Positions 511 through 8,397 of a stretch of DNA of 49,155 nucleotides are shown here, piece after piece. Position 1 is the first letter of the stretch; every line of letters begins with the position of its first letter. A program made the position numbers and the translations under genes. The stretch is taken from assembly GCA_017645765.1 (NCBI GenBank), contig JAGCNV010000076.1, positions 1 through 49,155 on the forward strand, in the 5' to 3' direction. The notes beneath the pieces were generated by a model. It saw nothing but the letters and a program-made list of their open reading frames with translations, ran no database searches and was not told the origin of the DNA. This stretch comes from a bacterium (lineage in GTDB: Bacteria; UBP6; UBA1177).

Positions 511-1800
511 ATGCAGAGGCTTTTGACAGAAAAATTGGTTGAGTGGAAAAACAACAGATACCGGAAACCCTTGATTTTATGGGGCGCAAGACAGGTGGGA
601 AAAACCTGGCTGATGAAAGATTTAGGTGAGAAATATTTTGAAAACTGTGTCTACATTTCCTTTTACAACAATAAAAGAATGGCTGAAATTTTCGAGGAGG
701 ACTACAATCCCGCCCGCATTCTGCAGAGGATTTCGATAGAACTTCACACAAAAATCGAGCCTGAAAAGACACTCATAATTTTTGATGAAGTACAGTCCGC
801 GATGAAAGTTGTGGAATCTCTGAAATACTTCTGCGAAGAGGCGCGCGAATACGCTGTCGTTGCGGCAGGATCGCTTCTCGGTGTGGCACGGCACGAAGGA
901 TTTTCGTTTCCGGTCGGAAAAGTTGACGAGTTGATGCTTCATCCGATGAATTTTAAAGAATTTCTACTTGCTATGGATGAACCTGAGCTTGCTGGATTTC
1001 TGGATAACTGGAAAAATCCCGAAGTTTCCTCTTTTAATGCCAAATATTCGGATTTATTGAAACTTTACTTTTATTTGGGTGGAATGCCTGAAGTTGTGAG
1101 CCGCTATGCGGAAAACCGAGACCTTGCCGAAGCGCGTGAGATCCAGCTTTCGATCATAAGCCAGTATGAAGGTGATTTCGGAAAGCACATCCAGTCGTCG
1201 CAGCTTCCGCGCATCAATATGACATGGAACGCTATTCCGTTGCAGCTTGCGAAAGAAAACCGTAAATTTTTCTTCGGGCAGGTGAAGGAAGGCGGCAGAA
1301 TGAAAGACTTTGAAATGGCAATTCAGTGGTTGCAGAACGCAGGGCTCATTCACAAAGTCCACAAAATCACAAAACCCGGAATACCGCTGAAATCCTACAT
1401 CGACTTTGCCGCCTTTAAGCTTTTTTTGATTGATATCGGTCTTTTGGGTGCGCTTAGCGAGCTTGACAACGCCAGCATTCTTACAGGAAATACCGTTTTT
1501 ACTGAATTTAAAGGAGCTCTTGCTGAACAGTACGTGCTTCAGGAACTTATTGCCGGTGAAAAATACACACCTTATTACTACTCCGGCGAAAAATCGACTT
1601 ACGAAACCGACTTCGTCATTCAGCGCGGCAGCGACATAATCCCGATCGAAGTCAAAGCCGAAGAAAATCTTAAATCAAAAAGCCTCAGATTTTACTGTGA
1701 CAAGTTCAATCCTGTATTCGCAGTACGGACATCAATGGCAAAAGCCGAAAATCAAGGTTGGATGGTAAATATTCCGCTTTGGGCAATCGGATCTTTATAA
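511..1800 (+). CDS. AAA_14/DUF4143-family ATPase
   Basis: This is a member of the large family of bacterial and archaeal ATPases with an N-terminal AAA_14 domain and a C-terminal DUF4143 domain. Cellular function is not established for the family. The P-loop GARQVGKT lies at residues 25-32 and the Walker B strand LIIFDE at about 88-93. The C-terminal third carries E-x-DF-x-I followed by PIEVKA, which resembles a PD-(D/E)xK nuclease-like core found in this family. A longer frame begins at TTG 481 and there is another ATG at 505, but GGAGG at 498-502 is spaced 8 nt from ATG 511, so that start is chosen (429 aa). It is a stand-alone gene, convergent with glnA 21 bp downstream. Such genes are often patchily distributed and present in several copies per genome. 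Confidence 0.85.
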   Translation: MQRLLTEKLVEWKNNRYRKPLILWGARQVGKTWLMKDLGEKYFENCVYISFYNNKRMAEIFEEDYNPARILQRISIELHTKIEPEKTLIIFDEVQSAMKVVESLKYFCEEAREYAVVAAGSLLGVARHEGFSFPVGKVDELMLHPMNFKEFLLAMDEPELAGFLDNWKNPEVSSFNAKYSDLLKLYFYLGGMPEVVSRYAENRDLAEAREIQLSIISQYEGDFGKHIQSSQLPRINMTWNAIPLQLAKENRKFFFGQVKEGGRMKDFEMAIQWLQNAGLIHKVHKITKPGIPLKSYIDFAAFKLFLIDIGLLGALSELDNASILTGNTVFTEFKGALAEQYVLQELIAGEKYTPYYYSGEKSTYETDFVIQRGSDIIPIEVKAEENLKSKSLRFYCDKFNPVFAVRTSMAKAENQGWMVNIPLWAIGSL

Positions 1801-3291: not shown

Positions 3292-4620
3292 ATGTTAAAA
3301 GTCATTATTTGCGACGATCCGCTTTTCTACATCAAGGAGAGAAAGGACAAAATTTCGTGGAATGCCGCTTCAAAAGAGGAGTTTTTCGCACAGATTCTCG
3401 GTTTCATAAGGCAGAATAAAAATTTCAGCATCGCTTACGGCGAATACCTTTTCGACAGCGATTCCCGTGCCGTCACTCTGCTTGAAACGCTTGAAGGAAG
3501 CACTTCCGAGATAACGCTTTTCTGCCGTGAAGCCGCGCTTTCCCCTGCGATCATGCGCTACGCCGCGATAGAGACATTAAAACCCGACCTTTCGATATTT
3601 TCTGAAAAAATCAGCAGACTTCCCTTTTCGGAAAGCACGAAAAACACGATCCGCGAAAATCTGAAAGGCTTTCCTTTCTCAAGGATCGACGAACTTCTGA
3701 AAAACGCTTCGGAACTTGATGAAACCAAGGCTGTCGAATATGTTCTTGAATCGAAACGCAGTCTCCTCATGCAGAACGAAATTCTTGAAGTCATCAATGT
3801 AGATGACGGAATTTCAGGCATCGGCGGCTACGAAGAGCTGAAGCAGTGGATAATCGAAAGACGCGGCAACTTTTCCGACGAAGCCCGCAAATTCGGGATC
3901 CCGCTCCCGAAAGGAATGCTCATGCTCGGTGTTCAGGGCTGCGGAAAATCGCTCACAAGCAAAGTCATTTCAAACATCTGGAACTTCCCGCTCGTCAGGC
4001 TCGACTTCATCAACCTTTTCAGAAAAGGCCAGAGCGTTGAAGAACTTCTGAAATCGGCGATCGCAACGATCGAAGGTTTCGCCCCTGTCGTTCTCTGGAT
4101 AGACGAAATCGAAAAAGCTCTTTCACAGGAAGGCGAAGGGGCCGAAATACGCAGAGTTTTAGGCTGGCTTATGACCTGGATGCAGGAGAAAAAGGAACCC
4201 GTTTTCCTTGTCGCTACGGCAAACAGAGTCTCGCTTCTCCCTCCCGAACTTCTGAGAAAAGGGCGTTTCGACGAGATATTCTTCGTTGACCTTCCATCAA
4301 AACCTGAGCGCGAAGAAATCTACAAGATCCACCTCAAAAAAAGAGGCCGCAATCCCGAAGATTTCGACACAGACAAATTGGCTTACAACTCCGAAGGCTT
4401 CAGCGGAGCCGAGATCGAGCAGGTCGTAATCGACTCTCTCATCACGGCATATTCAAGAAACTGCGAACTGACGCAGAAAATCCTCGAAGAAATCCTGCGC
4501 AGAACAGTTCCCCTTTCAAAAACCTACGAAGAGAACATCAAAGAACTCAGGATCTGGTCGAGAAACCGCGCAAGAAACGCTTCCGGCAACAGAAAAATCG
4601 AATCATTTTTCGGGAATTAG
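3292..4620 (+). CDS. Ycf46-like AAA+ ATPase
   Basis: This AAA+ ATPase resembles Ycf46 of cyanobacteria and red-algal plastids. Residues 1-190 form the poorly characterised N-terminal region, and the AAA+ core follows: Walker A GVQGCGKS at 213-220, Walker B VVLWIDEIEKA at about 266-276, sensor-1 Asn 311 in VATAN, and the arginine-finger segment LLRKGRFDEIF around 320-330. The C-terminal lid contains GFSGAEIEQVV. SD GGAGG lies just before ATG 3292. The protein is likely soluble and its substrate is unknown. The last 135 bp (4486-4620) occur again at 8126-8260 with only synonymous changes, flanking a restriction-modification island, so the 3' end of this gene appears to be an insertion target and the present C-terminus may be donor-supplied. 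Confidence 0.88.
   Translation: MLKVIICDDPLFYIKERKDKISWNAASKEEFFAQILGFIRQNKNFSIAYGEYLFDSDSRAVTLLETLEGSTSEITLFCREAALSPAIMRYAAIETLKPDLSIFSEKISRLPFSESTKNTIRENLKGFPFSRIDELLKNASELDETKAVEYVLESKRSLLMQNEILEVINVDDGISGIGGYEELKQWIIERRGNFSDEARKFGIPLPKGMLMLGVQGCGKSLTSKVISNIWNFPLVRLDFINLFRKGQSVEELLKSAIATIEGFAPVVLWIDEIEKALSQEGEGAEIRRVLGWLMTWMQEKKEPVFLVATANRVSLLPPELLRKGRFDEIFFVDLPSKPEREEIYKIHLKKRGRNPEDFDTDKLAYNSEGFSGAEIEQVVIDSLITAYSRNCELTQKILEEILRRTVPLSKTYEENIKELRIWSRNRARNASGNRKIESFFGN
4486..4620 (+). repeat. left copy of 135-bp direct repeat (attL-like), 3' end of the Ycf46-like gene
   Basis: This stretch codes the last 44 residues plus stop of the Ycf46-like ATPase. It aligns without gaps to 8126-8260 (offset 3640 bp) with 7 mismatches. 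All seven fall on third codon positions and are silent: ACC/ACT, GAG/GAA, AGG/AGA, GCA/GCG, GGC/GGT, GGG/GGA and TAG/TAA. Similarity stops abruptly to the left of 8126, so the right copy is only the gene tail. The two copies bracket the restriction-modification island. Confidence 0.92.
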
Positions 4621-4742
4621 CAGAACAGATCAACTTGCAGTAAAACGCGGCAGCAATTCAAAGAATTCATTAAGTTGACATTCTCAGCATTAAACAAGGG
4701 TAAATGTACGATATAATGCGGATTGATGCCCTTGACACAAAA

Positions 4743-5348
4743 TCAATACTTTGAATCGTGCGAAATGTTATATTTACCTTCCTTTTCAAGCCATTTAGCC
4801 ATAGCCCACGCTTCTTCAAAACGAACTGACGCCATGGTTAAACCATATTTACGACAAAGCAAAGCGAATTCTTCATAGGTTGGCGGTTGCTTTGTAAACA
4901 AAATCCACATAAGCGCTGCTTCAGCAGTTAAGAAGGTTTTGCCCCCTTTTTTGTGTGAAGGGCGTTTAATTACATTACACCTTCTGCAACGCAACGTTAA
5001 ATTTTCAAGCGTGTTTGCCGCATCGCCTAATTCCTCTTTTGGTATGACATGATCTGCTTGAAGTTCAAGCCGTGTGCCACAGTCAGCGCATTTGCCGCTT
5101 TGCTCAAAATGCCATTGTCGAACGGCCGCCCAACATTTACCCTTTGGGTAGTGGGATTGAAAAGACTTTTTGCTTGCAACAGACGTTCCGACCTGTGACG
5201 GGTTTAAATGACCTAAAAGCAAAGAAGCAATTTCACGGTATTTAACAAGCCCGTTTGCTATAAGGTAATCAATCATTGTTTTCCAATCTTCTTCCGTATA
5301 ATCTCTGTCTGATTCAGGAAGATTTTCAAGCATTTCGTTATATTCCAT
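4743..5348 (-). CDS. HNH endonuclease, probable type II restriction enzyme
   Basis: This 201-aa protein carries a zinc-supported HNH (beta-beta-alpha metal) nuclease core: CADC at 87-90, LQADHVIP with the catalytic Asp99-His100, a central Asn in NTLENL around 112-116, and CRRC followed by Asn125 at 121-125. The N-terminal 80 residues are helical and could contact DNA or mediate dimers. The gene starts 1 bp after the stop of the XRE controller gene, with GGAGGG in the end of that gene as ribosome-binding site, so the two are translated as a pair. The divergent methyltransferase next door makes restriction endonuclease the most probable role. A homing or phage-type HNH protein is the alternative. 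The recognition sequence cannot be predicted. Confidence 0.82.
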   Translation of the reverse strand: MEYNEMLENLPESDRDYTEEDWKTMIDYLIANGLVKYREIASLLLGHLNPSQVGTSVASKKSFQSHYPKGKCWAAVRQWHFEQSGKCADCGTRLELQADHVIPKEELGDAANTLENLTLRCRRCNVIKRPSHKKGGKTFLTAEAALMWILFTKQPPTYEEFALLCRKYGLTMASVRFEEAWAMAKWLEKEGKYNISHDSKY

Positions 5349-5349
5349 T

Positions 5350-5601
5350 TTATAACCCTCCTTCCTTTAATCTTGTTTCATATTCACTTGCAAACTCAGT
5401 CAGGGAAACGCCTAAGACGGTACAAATTCGCCTAATTTCTACAATGTCAAGGCGTTTTTGTCCTTGCTCATACTTGCTTATGTACGATTGAGGACAGTTA
5501 AGAGACGCAGCAAGTTCTTGTTGCGTCATGCGGGATTGCGCCCGCAAATCTCGTAAACATTCGACAAAAATTTTGTAGCCTGGTTCATATATGTTGCTCA
5601 T
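5350..5601 (-). CDS. XRE-family controller (C) protein of the restriction-modification system
   Basis: This 83-aa protein is almost entirely one Cro/C1-type helix-turn-helix domain: RMTQQELAASLNCPQSYISK holds the helix pair at about residues 24-43, followed by YEQGQKRLDIVEIRRI. Size and position match C proteins of type II systems such as PvuII, which sit just upstream of the nuclease gene, activate their own C-R promoter and later repress it. It has a strong ribosome-binding site (GGAGGTGAT) before ATG 5601. A promoter lies at 5621-5649. Autoregulation is inferred from the family arrangement, not shown here. Confidence 0.85.
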   Translation of the reverse strand: MSNIYEPGYKIFVECLRDLRAQSRMTQQELAASLNCPQSYISKYEQGQKRLDIVEIRRICTVLGVSLTEFASEYETRLKEGGL

Positions 5602-5620
5602 AGCATCACCTCCTATTTTA

Positions 5621-5649
5621 ATTTTATTCCACCCTTAAGATTATCCCAA
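5621..5649 (-). promoter_or_regulatory. probable C-R promoter with overlapping inverted repeat
   Basis: Read on the minus strand, TTGGGA (5644-5649) and TAAAAT (5621-5626) are spaced 17 bp, a reasonable sigma-70 match ending about 20 bp before the controller ATG. An inverted repeat TATCC-N7-GGATA (5642-5658) overlaps the -35 box, a plausible operator for the controller protein. Operator identity is inference. Confidence 0.5.
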
Positions 5650-5658
5650 ATCAGGATA

Positions 5659-5687
5659 TTGACTTGATAGCTGTTCCGAACTATAAT
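5659..5687 (+). promoter_or_regulatory. methyltransferase promoter
   Basis: TTGACT (5659-5664) and a perfect TATAAT (5682-5687) are separated by 17 bp, one of the best sigma-70 promoters in the window. It would start transcription near 5694, shortly before the GTG start of the methyltransferase at 5722. Confidence 0.7.
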
Positions 5688-5696
5688 ATCATAGTT
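5679..5696. promoter_or_regulatory. inverted repeat over the methyltransferase -10 box (candidate operator)
   Basis: AACTAT-AATATC-ATAGTT has perfect 6-bp arms around a 6-bp spacer and covers the TATAAT box. A protein bound here would block the methyltransferase promoter. The controller protein encoded next door is the obvious candidate, but the repeat differs in sequence from the one at the C-R promoter. Confidence 0.5.
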
Positions 5697-5721
5697 TATT
5701 TTGCAGAAATGGAGGGGGCGG

Positions 5722-7944
5722 GTGCTTGAATCAATCATAACTAGTTTTTGTGATTTGATTTCGCAAGAATGGAAACCCACGTATTCACAAGTAGAAACCT
5801 TAAAGGCATTATATGAATTTTCTGAACAAAACGGATATTCCTGTTCAAACGCATATGAAGAATCGTTTTATGAAGCTGTAAACAATAAATTAACAACGAA
5901 TCTTTCAGCGTATCAGCATATCTTAGATGTGGCTTTTTTTCATGGCATAAAATTAAATTATCTTCATAAAACGGAAATCAGAGCACTACTTGATAGTGGT
6001 AATAGCACAAAATATAGAACTTATTTAATTGAAAACGGTATTTCGTCAACAGAAATGCTTGAAGCCTTTACCCCAGTTGAAAGATTTGTTACTATGCAGC
6101 AGTTCAATAAAGCAAAAGAGAACGATAAACAATTTGATGAAATGCTAAATGCTATTTTTTCACGATACTGCTATAACTTGTTTGACAAGAAATGTACCTC
6201 ATTATTCTTTTCAAAAAGCAATAAATACGCCCACGATTATTTTGATTTCATATCGGCAATATATCCGGATATGTGCCAAAGAAACAAGGCTCTGTCATTC
6301 GTTGATATAACCGCCGACCTGTTTGAAGGTGGATATTCAAACGGGTGTGACTGTGCTTTGAAAGCAATAAAACAATCTTTTGATTTATTGAATAACCATT
6401 GCGACATGGCAATCTATGTGCCCGATCTTGAAATAGAAGGACATAGTATTCAATGGAAATTATTTGCAGATTTGGTTTTGTATGCCGAAAAGATGAACCC
6501 AGAAAAAATAGACAGAATGTATTTTCACTGGAAGAAAATAAAAAGCGCCAGCGAAAAATATATAAATGGGTTAGATAGTGTTGATACAGATTTTAGTATT
6601 GCATTCCAAGGCTTTGTTTTTAAGGACTGCTTTGTTTTACAGCAGGATAAAAGCTATTCATTGTTGCTAATATTTGAAAAAAATATGCGCGATGAAAGAC
6701 CTCTATATTGCCCCGCTTGCCGCAGTCTTAATATTGAAGGCAACTCCTATCCAATATTAAATGTTCGCAGTTGGGAATGTCAAAACCCGCTTTGCCCTGA
6801 TAGAAGCAAGTATAACCGAGGGAAAAGATATGCTTTTTCTTCTATAATGCGGCAAAAGCTAATGTCAGATGAAGCAAATAGAATACCTGAAAAATCTATT
6901 GCAGCATGGCGCCTTGATTACGTTAAAGGCTTCGACAAGCACAACGCATTTGAAATGGTATTACGTCATTATAGCTGCGTAGGTGATGGAATTATGATTT
7001 TTACTTCTGATCCTGCTTTTTATTCATCGGTTAAAACATTCGGACGTGATCCACATTTTATGCAGTATGTAAATAGTGAGCACGGTACATTAGAAGCATT
7101 TAAGCAAAGTTCATATTTCAAACGCTATATTCAGAATGACAAGCGACCATATATAATCGCTGATTCATGGAAATATAACAATGCTGTTGTTTATAACGGA
7201 GATTCATTTGAAATCTTAAAAGGGTTTGAGAATAATAGTATAGACGGAGCTGTAACATCGCCACCATATTACAACGCAAAATCATATTCACAATGGGAAA
7301 ACATCTATTGTTATCTATATGATATGTATAACATATCAACCGAAATATTTCGTGTGTTGAAGCCAGGCGCAGTATATCTTTTTAATATATTCGACTATTT
7401 CGATAATGAAAAAAATATTGTCTTTTCCGCGATGGGAAACAAGCGAATGATATTAGGCGCGTATATGCTTGACATCTTTACAAGAATCGGCTTTTTCGTT
7501 CAGGGAAATATAATTTGGTATAAGGGCGAAATTCAAGGAAATAGGAGTTTTAACCAAGGCAATTTAACTCCATATTATCAAGCCCCATTGAATTGTTGGG
7601 AACATATTTTCATACTGTCAAAGGGAAAACCAGATAAAAAGTACAAAGATTTAAAATCTTGCATTGCGGCTATCCGCCCGGTTGTTAAAATAGTTAAAGG
7701 CAAAAATATATTAGGTCATACGGCTCCCTACCCAACAGAAATTCCCGACTTGCTGTTAAAATACATGAAACCAGGCGATTCTATACTTGATCCGTTTTTA
7801 GGCAGCGGAACAACATGTATAGCAGCAGAAAAAAAAGGAATAAAATCAATAGGCATTGAAAAAAACCCAGAATATTTCAAACTTTGCCAAAGTCTAATCC
7901 AGAAACGATCCTGTTTTCAGTTGTCATTTGATTTGCTACAGTGA
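5722..7944 (+). CDS. DNA amino-methyltransferase (N4-cytosine or N6-adenine, beta class) with long N-terminal region
   Basis: The C-terminal third is a DNA methyltransferase with motif IV TSPPYYN at residues 512-518 and the AdoMet-binding motif I LDPFLGSGTT at 689-698. The order IV before I marks the beta class, and SPPY is the form common in N4-cytosine enzymes, though N6-adenine activity is not excluded. The first 510 residues are unusual for a type II methyltransferase. They contain a four-cysteine zinc-ribbon-like element (C330, C333, C353, C358) and otherwise unrecognised helical sequence. The frame is open from TTG 5701, but that would lie nearly at the predicted transcription start. 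GGAGG at 5711-5715 is 6 nt from GTG 5722, which is chosen (740 aa). It should protect host DNA from the neighbouring HNH enzyme. The gene is A+T-rich compared with the flanking chromosome. Confidence 0.88.
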   Translation: MLESIITSFCDLISQEWKPTYSQVETLKALYEFSEQNGYSCSNAYEESFYEAVNNKLTTNLSAYQHILDVAFFHGIKLNYLHKTEIRALLDSGNSTKYRTYLIENGISSTEMLEAFTPVERFVTMQQFNKAKENDKQFDEMLNAIFSRYCYNLFDKKCTSLFFSKSNKYAHDYFDFISAIYPDMCQRNKALSFVDITADLFEGGYSNGCDCALKAIKQSFDLLNNHCDMAIYVPDLEIEGHSIQWKLFADLVLYAEKMNPEKIDRMYFHWKKIKSASEKYINGLDSVDTDFSIAFQGFVFKDCFVLQQDKSYSLLLIFEKNMRDERPLYCPACRSLNIEGNSYPILNVRSWECQNPLCPDRSKYNRGKRYAFSSIMRQKLMSDEANRIPEKSIAAWRLDYVKGFDKHNAFEMVLRHYSCVGDGIMIFTSDPAFYSSVKTFGRDPHFMQYVNSEHGTLEAFKQSSYFKRYIQNDKRPYIIADSWKYNNAVVYNGDSFEILKGFENNSIDGAVTSPPYYNAKSYSQWENIYCYLYDMYNISTEIFRVLKPGAVYLFNIFDYFDNEKNIVFSAMGNKRMILGAYMLDIFTRIGFFVQGNIIWYKGEIQGNRSFNQGNLTPYYQAPLNCWEHIFILSKGKPDKKYKDLKSCIAAIRPVVKIVKGKNILGHTAPYPTEIPDLLLKYMKPGDSILDPFLGSGTTCIAAEKKGIKSIGIEKNPEYFKLCQSLIQKRSCFQLSFDLLQ

Positions 7945-8003
7945 AATATAATTTTGTAACTTTAAGCGACAAATTGATATAGAGAAACATCGAAAACCCT
8001 TAT

Positions 8004-8083
8004 AAATCACCAGAAAAGTGTTATTCTTTTAAATCGCTCCAGCCATATTTCGACTTTATATTTCGACTGTTTTCAGGTGATTT
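8004..8083. repeat. spaced inverted repeat enclosing a short direct repeat at the island's right end
   Basis: AAATCACCAGAAAA (8004-8017) is complementary to TTTTCAGGTGATTT (8070-8083) with one mismatch in 14. Between the arms ATATTTCGACT occurs twice, at 8045-8055 and 8058-8068. The block lies between the methyltransferase stop and the duplicated gene tail. It may be a recombination or binding site, or a large stem-loop after the methyltransferase gene. Confidence 0.6.
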
Positions 8084-8125
8084 CCCTAAAACCCCAATTT
8101 ATAAAAGAACCTTTTGATCTTGGAT

Positions 8126-8260
8126 GAAGAAATCCTGCGCAGAACAGTTCCCCTTTCAAAAACTTACGAAGAAAACATCAAAGAACTCAGAATCTGGTCG
8201 AGAAACCGCGCGAGAAACGCTTCCGGTAACAGAAAAATCGAATCATTTTTCGGAAATTAA
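8126..8260 (+). pseudogene. right copy of the 135-bp repeat: orphan 3' end of the Ycf46-like gene (attR-like)
   Basis: This fragment would encode the same final 44 residues as the intact gene at 3292-4620, ending in TAA instead of TAG. Nothing upstream of 8126 resembles the rest of the gene. A short in-frame TTG exists at 8120, but there is no Shine-Dalgarno sequence, so expression is unlikely. Because all differences from the left copy are silent, both copies diverged while under coding selection, which means they were alleles in different genomes rather than a recent duplication in place. This copy may be the original chromosomal tail left behind the insertion. Confidence 0.9.
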
Positions 8261-8321
8261 CACAAAAAAGCCTCAATCTTTAAGACCTTAAAAACAATGT
8301 GGGGGAAATCATCGGGAAAGG

Positions 8322-8397
8322 TGGTGCCCAGGGACAGAATCGAACTGCCCACACGGGGATTTTCAGTCCCCTGCTCTACCGACTGAGCTACCTGGGC
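8322..8397 (-). tRNA. tRNA-Phe (GAA)
   Basis: The minus strand folds into a standard 76-nt cloverleaf: acceptor GCCCAGG/CCTGGGC, D-stem GCTC/GAGC, anticodon stem GGGGA/TCCCC around the loop CTGAAAA (anticodon GAA), T-arm with GTTCGATTC, discriminator A, and an encoded CCA at 8322-8324. It lies 61 bp after the orphan gene tail and is transcribed toward it. Confidence 0.96.

Follow-up and report, generated by a model that had tools for sequence, protein, structure and literature searches.

Control region of an inserted Type II-like restriction-modification cassette with one conserved candidate operator between back-to-back promoters

Introduction

Most of the studied C proteins of restriction-modification (R-M) systems delay the nuclease by late activation. 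Most C proteins are described as carrying an SQE patch that contacts sigma and activates (PMC4824078), and C.Esp1396I is reported to control both the methyltransferase and the nuclease side, with three operator sequences (PMC3758141). The systems C.Csp231I and C.EcoO109I (motif 8) are described with operators of 5-bp arms and an A-rich N5 spacer (CTAAG-N5-CTTAG), two of them lying 18 bp apart, and with regulators that have two extra C-terminal helices and SQE (PMC3115060, PMC4824078). In Kpn2I, as PMC6237814 describes it, the regulator and methyltransferase genes are divergent and close, and C.Kpn2I is closer to XRE proteins in general than to the classical C proteins. Its site falls within the C gene, where it serves as an elongation roadblock; its binding at the methyltransferase (M) -35 box represses M; and the nuclease is transcribed from a promoter of its own.

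Here we describe an R-M cassette in a 49,155-nucleotide stretch of bacterial DNA (hereafter the window) that resembles Kpn2I in the divergent and close arrangement of the regulator and methyltransferase genes and perhaps in a regulator nearer to general XRE proteins. In the literature searched, no description of a Type II control region with one operator and a regulator that only represses was found, which is not to claim that none exists.

The Cassette and Its Insertion Site

An inserted R-M cassette of Type II-like character occupies 4621-8125. Its minus strand encodes an HNH protein of 201 aa (4743..5348; Pfam HNH 4.3e-08), the presumed restriction endonuclease, and a small XRE/C-like regulator of 83 aa (5350..5601; HTH_31 1.1e-14), whose gene is the first of the C-R unit. 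Divergent from these, the plus strand encodes a long N4/N6-type DNA methyltransferase of 740 aa (5722..7944; N6_N4_Mtase 6.6e-27; PADLOC MTase_II 2.5e-97), the start of which is most likely the GTG at 5722, preceded by GGAGGGGG. A DNA methyltransferase domain and a presumed nuclease gene linked to it, a linkage kept in the related locus L006, are features of Type II R-M systems, and a small XRE gene that precedes the nuclease gene within a single unit is a feature of the classical C proteins (PvuII, AhdI, Esp1396I). A search by sequence for a solved relative of the HNH protein found none, and the predicted model of the methyltransferase (pLDDT 33.9) was too poor and was left out of the analysis. 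No HTH domain was matched in the methyltransferase in Pfam or NCBIfam, and the suggestion in the initial annotation that the methyltransferase itself may be a repressor is thus unsupported.

The 3' end of an AAA ATPase gene stands on either side of the cassette, in plus-strand copies at 4486..4620 and, on the other border of the insert, at 8126..8260; this 135-bp duplication has 7/135 mismatches between its copies. In the sister genomes L070, L072, and L073 the site is empty, and the AAA gene continues directly into the sequence found after 8126 in the window. The AAA gene is directly followed by tRNA-Phe in four of ten sister loci (these three and L074) and by other DNA in the remaining six. 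Longer stretches of those six loci reached the far border in five (it was not seen in L086), and a second AAA end was present in none of the five, which indicates that the 135-bp duplication is tied to the R-M insert. R-M systems are known to move by insertion with a long target duplication, to judge from a title cited in PMC3874152. The G+C content is 34.4% in 5722-8125 and about 45.5% around the cassette. Horizontal acquisition of the cassette forms part of the explanation that we consider best.

The interval 4621-8321, which separates the AAA ATPase gene from tRNA-Phe (8322-8397), resembles an insertion hotspot in this genus. The DNA filling it in sister loci includes an ankyrin-like lipoprotein gene and an HTH gene beside a small partner gene, both named by eye.

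Related Loci

The genome contig scan matched 13 stretches, among which L006, on a Firmicutes MAG contig, is the only one related to the methyltransferase over its full length. The three cassette genes are present there in unchanged order and orientation, with identities to the window proteins of 57% for the methyltransferase, 76% for the HNH protein, and 64% for the XRE regulator. The L006 cassette is bordered by apparent transposase gene pieces, recognized by eye (L006 2660-3000 and 6371-6778), which suggests that it was also mobile in the past.

Further searches, the genome sets of which overlap, returned few relatives. A methyltransferase search in 61 genomes found its own copy alone at full length. 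With a two-sequence methyltransferase profile (E up to 1e-40), the matches were G061 itself among 398 genomes of its phylum, and the own copy plus a partial copy in G975 among 386 relatives of G000. The HNH profile matched G061 itself alone, both in 296 genomes (E up to 1e-25) and in 391 (E up to 1e-15), and the XRE profile (E up to 1e-8) matched G061 and four distant genomes (5/391). No complete relative was found in viral contigs, where one search gave 42 loci that share the catalytic part of the methyltransferase; in plasmids and phages, only this catalytic part was matched, and the HNH protein gave no match. By tblastn against 63 loci (E up to 1e-3), the XRE regulator matched its copies in the window and L006 and no others, and the HNH protein matched its own two copies there and L019 over 55 residues.

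Two loci encode distant methyltransferases with a TSPPYYNA..YSQWEN motif (L021 991-2484 and L022 4509-5927) and a different N-terminus that, by eye, resembles a small HTH. The L021 gene has a convergent 280-aa gene nearby, and the L022 gene lies in a viral contig.

The Regulator Protein

In PADLOC, the regulator matches the Control_protein profile (5e-10), but HTH_VI is the better match (3.8e-12). Its predicted structure (pLDDT 89.1, five helices) appears to have the C-protein fold, which is also common to other XRE regulators. The best structural match of this model is C.Esp1396I (Z 13.8, rmsd 1.0 over 75 residues), followed by 3eus, 3f6w, C.EcoT38IS, and C.BclI, matches less than 1 apart counting as tied. 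The solved chains closest in sequence are 3f6w (3.9e-12) and 2ef8, which is C.EcoT38IS (1.4e-08). Both are XRE proteins about a third identical to the window regulator (27 to 32% in the structural matches) that share with it the pattern QS..SK.E....RLD around the recognition helix. The window and L006 regulators share an identical HTH stretch, QSYISKYEQGQKRLDI, unlike RTYISEVERG of C.BclI, and a similar half-site is therefore expected for the two proteins.

At the position of the SQE patch, the window and L006 regulators have TQQ, 3f6w has TQK, and 2ef8 has SQS. Replacement of SQE in C.Csp231I is reported to have abolished activation and also DNA binding (PMC4824078); since binding was lost as well, this mutant is not a clean test of activation. 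By analogy, TQQ would argue against activation and for a repressor.

Promoters and Inverted Repeats

The initial annotation had described the region 5602-5721 as a divergent R-M control region with two promoters and an inverted repeat over each, and all four elements were found where it had placed them. The methyltransferase promoter on the plus strand is TTGACT-17-TATAAT (-35 at 5659-5664, -10 at 5682-5687), and that of the XRE-HNH unit on the minus strand is TTGGGA-17-TAAAAT (-35 at 5649-5644, -10 at 5626-5621); their counterparts in L006 are TTGACT-17-TATACT and TTGGAA-17-TATAAT. The promoters are arranged back to back in the window and in L006 alike; their spacers are 17 bp long and their -35 boxes 10 bp apart, so close that polymerase could hardly occupy both promoters simultaneously. 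The fit to consensus in the window is 11/12 for the plus promoter and 9/12 for the minus promoter, whereas in L006 it is equal (10 and 10, counted by hand). The methyltransferase promoter of the window, being nearer to consensus, may thus gain an early win over the XRE-HNH promoter, an advantage that the equal scores in L006 show not to be conserved.

Promoter-like sites in 4500-7500 number 11, with 10.5 expected. The two palindromes are the only perfect inverted repeats in 5602-5721 (arms of at least 5, spacer up to 12), and when this 120-bp stretch was shuffled 2000 times under a first-order Markov model, repeats with arms of 5 or more numbered 1.7 on average, and 35% of the shuffles had one or more repeats whose arms measured at least 6. 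By statistics alone, the promoters and palindromes are not beyond chance.

Comparison with L006, the one complete relative, tells these elements apart. The control regions were aligned by anchoring on the plus -35 box, and the alignment is gap-free through both promoters. Hexamer identity is 6/6 for the plus -35, and 5/6 each for the plus -10, the minus -35, and the minus -10 (21/24 in total); outside the hexamers, it is 5/17 in the plus spacer, 8/17 in the minus spacer, and 4/13 immediately downstream of the plus -10. This low identity between the hexamers makes the kept positions meaningful, within a single pairwise comparison. L006 retains both promoters and the left palindrome, but not the right one, so that the divergent control region, with XRE ahead of the nuclease and its left dyad, is supported, but the reading of an inverted repeat over each promoter as two operators is not.

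The left palindrome, TATCC-N7-GGATA at 5642-5658, had been placed over the minus -35 box. It is present there, but in the register of L006 it extends over 21 bp (5640-5660, centre 5650) and touches both -35 boxes, covering the whole minus -35 (5644-5649) and two bases at the start of the plus -35 (5659-5664). This proposed operator, ATTATCCCAAATCAGGATATT, is identical to L006 3921-3941 at 15/21 positions, and in L006 as in the window its centre lies 9 bp from the M -35. The aligned place in L006 holds a perfect 9+3+9 repeat, AATATTCCA-AAA-TGGAATATT. In the common register, 9/10 pairs match in L006, a count reached at any centre in 0.98% of 4000 shuffles, and 7/10 match in the window (3/10 fail), a count reached at the one given centre in 0.48% of 4000 shuffles. 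At position 5 of the half-site from the centre, C/G in the window is replaced by T/A in L006, a symmetric change on both arms. Eight of the 21 bases fall in -35 hexamers; outside these, 8/13 are identical to L006 (counted by hand), which is not striking. Because the dyad, its place, and the symmetric change are kept in L006, TATCC-N7-GGATA is likely to be the core of one real, conserved candidate operator between the promoters.

The consensus AWTATYCCAAANNRGRATATT fits 5640-5660 perfectly, which proves nothing since it was built from the two loci. With up to 3 mismatches, it finds one other site in the window (1768-1788, 3 mismatches; 0.23 sites expected in all), to which no role is ascribed. 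The pattern had no match in the viral contigs, and in the four distant XRE loci the best operator-like scores were 16 or 17 of 21, with no common position seen. An extra overlapping repeat, TGGAAT-ATTCCA (L006 3918-3929), adjoins the proposed operator of L006 on the regulator side, and this third half-site could allow a second dimer.

The right palindrome, AACTAT-N6-ATAGTT at 5679..5696 over the M -10, is perfect in its 6+6 arms and matches in 8/9 pairs overall in the window. The stretch of L006 aligned to it, TTATATACTATTACGGAC, matches in 4/9 pairs. As a dyad it is unlike the left operator, its middle AATATC resembling one left half-site, and its pattern (up to 2 mismatches) occurs once in the window, as itself, with 1.65 expected. 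It is probably not an operator and is probably due to chance or lineage-specific.

Proposed Control and Alternatives

From the gene order, the likeness of the promoters, and the conservation of dyad and spacing observed in one relative, we infer binding, dimerization, and a direction of regulation as follows. The small XRE protein would bind as a dimer to the single dyad at 5640-5660 between the back-to-back promoters. There it would block the minus -35, and since the operator covers the whole of that box, binding would repress the XRE-HNH operon and cap the nuclease. The right edge of the operator overlaps the first two bases of the M -35, and the same dimer would probably damp the methyltransferase promoter; because this overlap is 2 bp, the effect on M could also be none or positive, and block is placed ahead of no effect and activation. 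That the XRE protein represses its own promoter through this one dyad, and probably the M promoter also, with the right palindrome being chance or lineage-specific, is the account we regard as probable. A fuller version is held more tentatively: the regulator may be a purely homeostatic repressor of both promoters, its activation lost or never had, with the timing of methylation before restriction arising from promoter competition and gene order instead of delayed activation.

Autorepression by occlusion of the regulator's own -35 is favoured over the classical arrangement of two operators with activation and repression. In the classical switch of PvuII and Esp1396I, the XRE protein would activate and then repress its own C-R promoter and would repress M; the C-like fold and the regulator-nuclease order divergent from the methyltransferase speak for it, but there is a single candidate operator, which lies on the C-R -35 box instead of upstream, the GACT/AGTC C-box is absent, and TQQ stands in place of SQE, which together make this switch unlikely here. 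The TQQ patch, in which Q replaces the acidic residue for the sigma contact, also weighs against one operator with opposite effects, where the XRE protein would repress itself and activate M from just upstream of the -35, as lambda CI does at PRM. The right edge of the operator borders the M -35 at the same distance in the window and in L006, as that arrangement would have it, but the M promoter is already 11/12 to consensus, and we judge it quite unlikely.

The remaining alternatives turn on which repeats matter. Two ordinary promoters with no specific regulation, the dyad being conserved merely through the -35 boxes, would agree with the commonness by chance of single repeats of such size and with the share of operator bases in the hexamers; this is improbable given the perfect repeat of L006 at the same centre with its symmetric change, and the dedicated XRE gene kept in both loci. 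The initial annotation had instead envisaged two different operators, with the XRE protein or the methyltransferase binding the right one over the M -10. The perfection of the right palindrome in the window is in its favour, but its decay in L006, the frequency of such arms in shuffles, a half-site differing from that of the conserved candidate operator, and the unmatched HTH domain in the methyltransferase render it highly improbable. With so few pairs matching in L006, the puzzle of two differing operators probably has nothing to explain.

Comparison with Known Systems

Under the favoured autorepression through one dyad, the control region looks like a variant of known R-M control. The half-site of the C.Esp1396I operator differs from that of the window. 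The window regulator shares its fold with C.Esp1396I and is proposed likewise to control both sides, but one operator is seen instead of the three described (PMC3758141). The two adjacent GACT/AGTC operators of the classical systems are replaced by one dyad with other letters. The 5-bp arms and A-rich N5 spacer of motif 8 recur in L006 as ATTCC-AAAAT-GGAAT, but the window has neither the CTAAG-N5-CTTAG operator pair at its described spacing nor SQE, and its five-helix regulator lacks the two extra C-terminal helices (PMC3115060, PMC4824078). Repression of M by binding at its -35, as in Kpn2I, is proposed for the window; in contrast to the Kpn2I site, the window dyad is intergenic, on the -35 of the regulator, with its centre 49 bp upstream of the XRE start, and the nuclease gene follows the regulator instead of having its own promoter (PMC6237814).

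If this account is true, a regulator that only represses, through a single shared site, would make it simpler for an R-M cassette to enter a new host. If binding is confirmed, the half-site may serve as a marker for finding this small regulator family in genomes.
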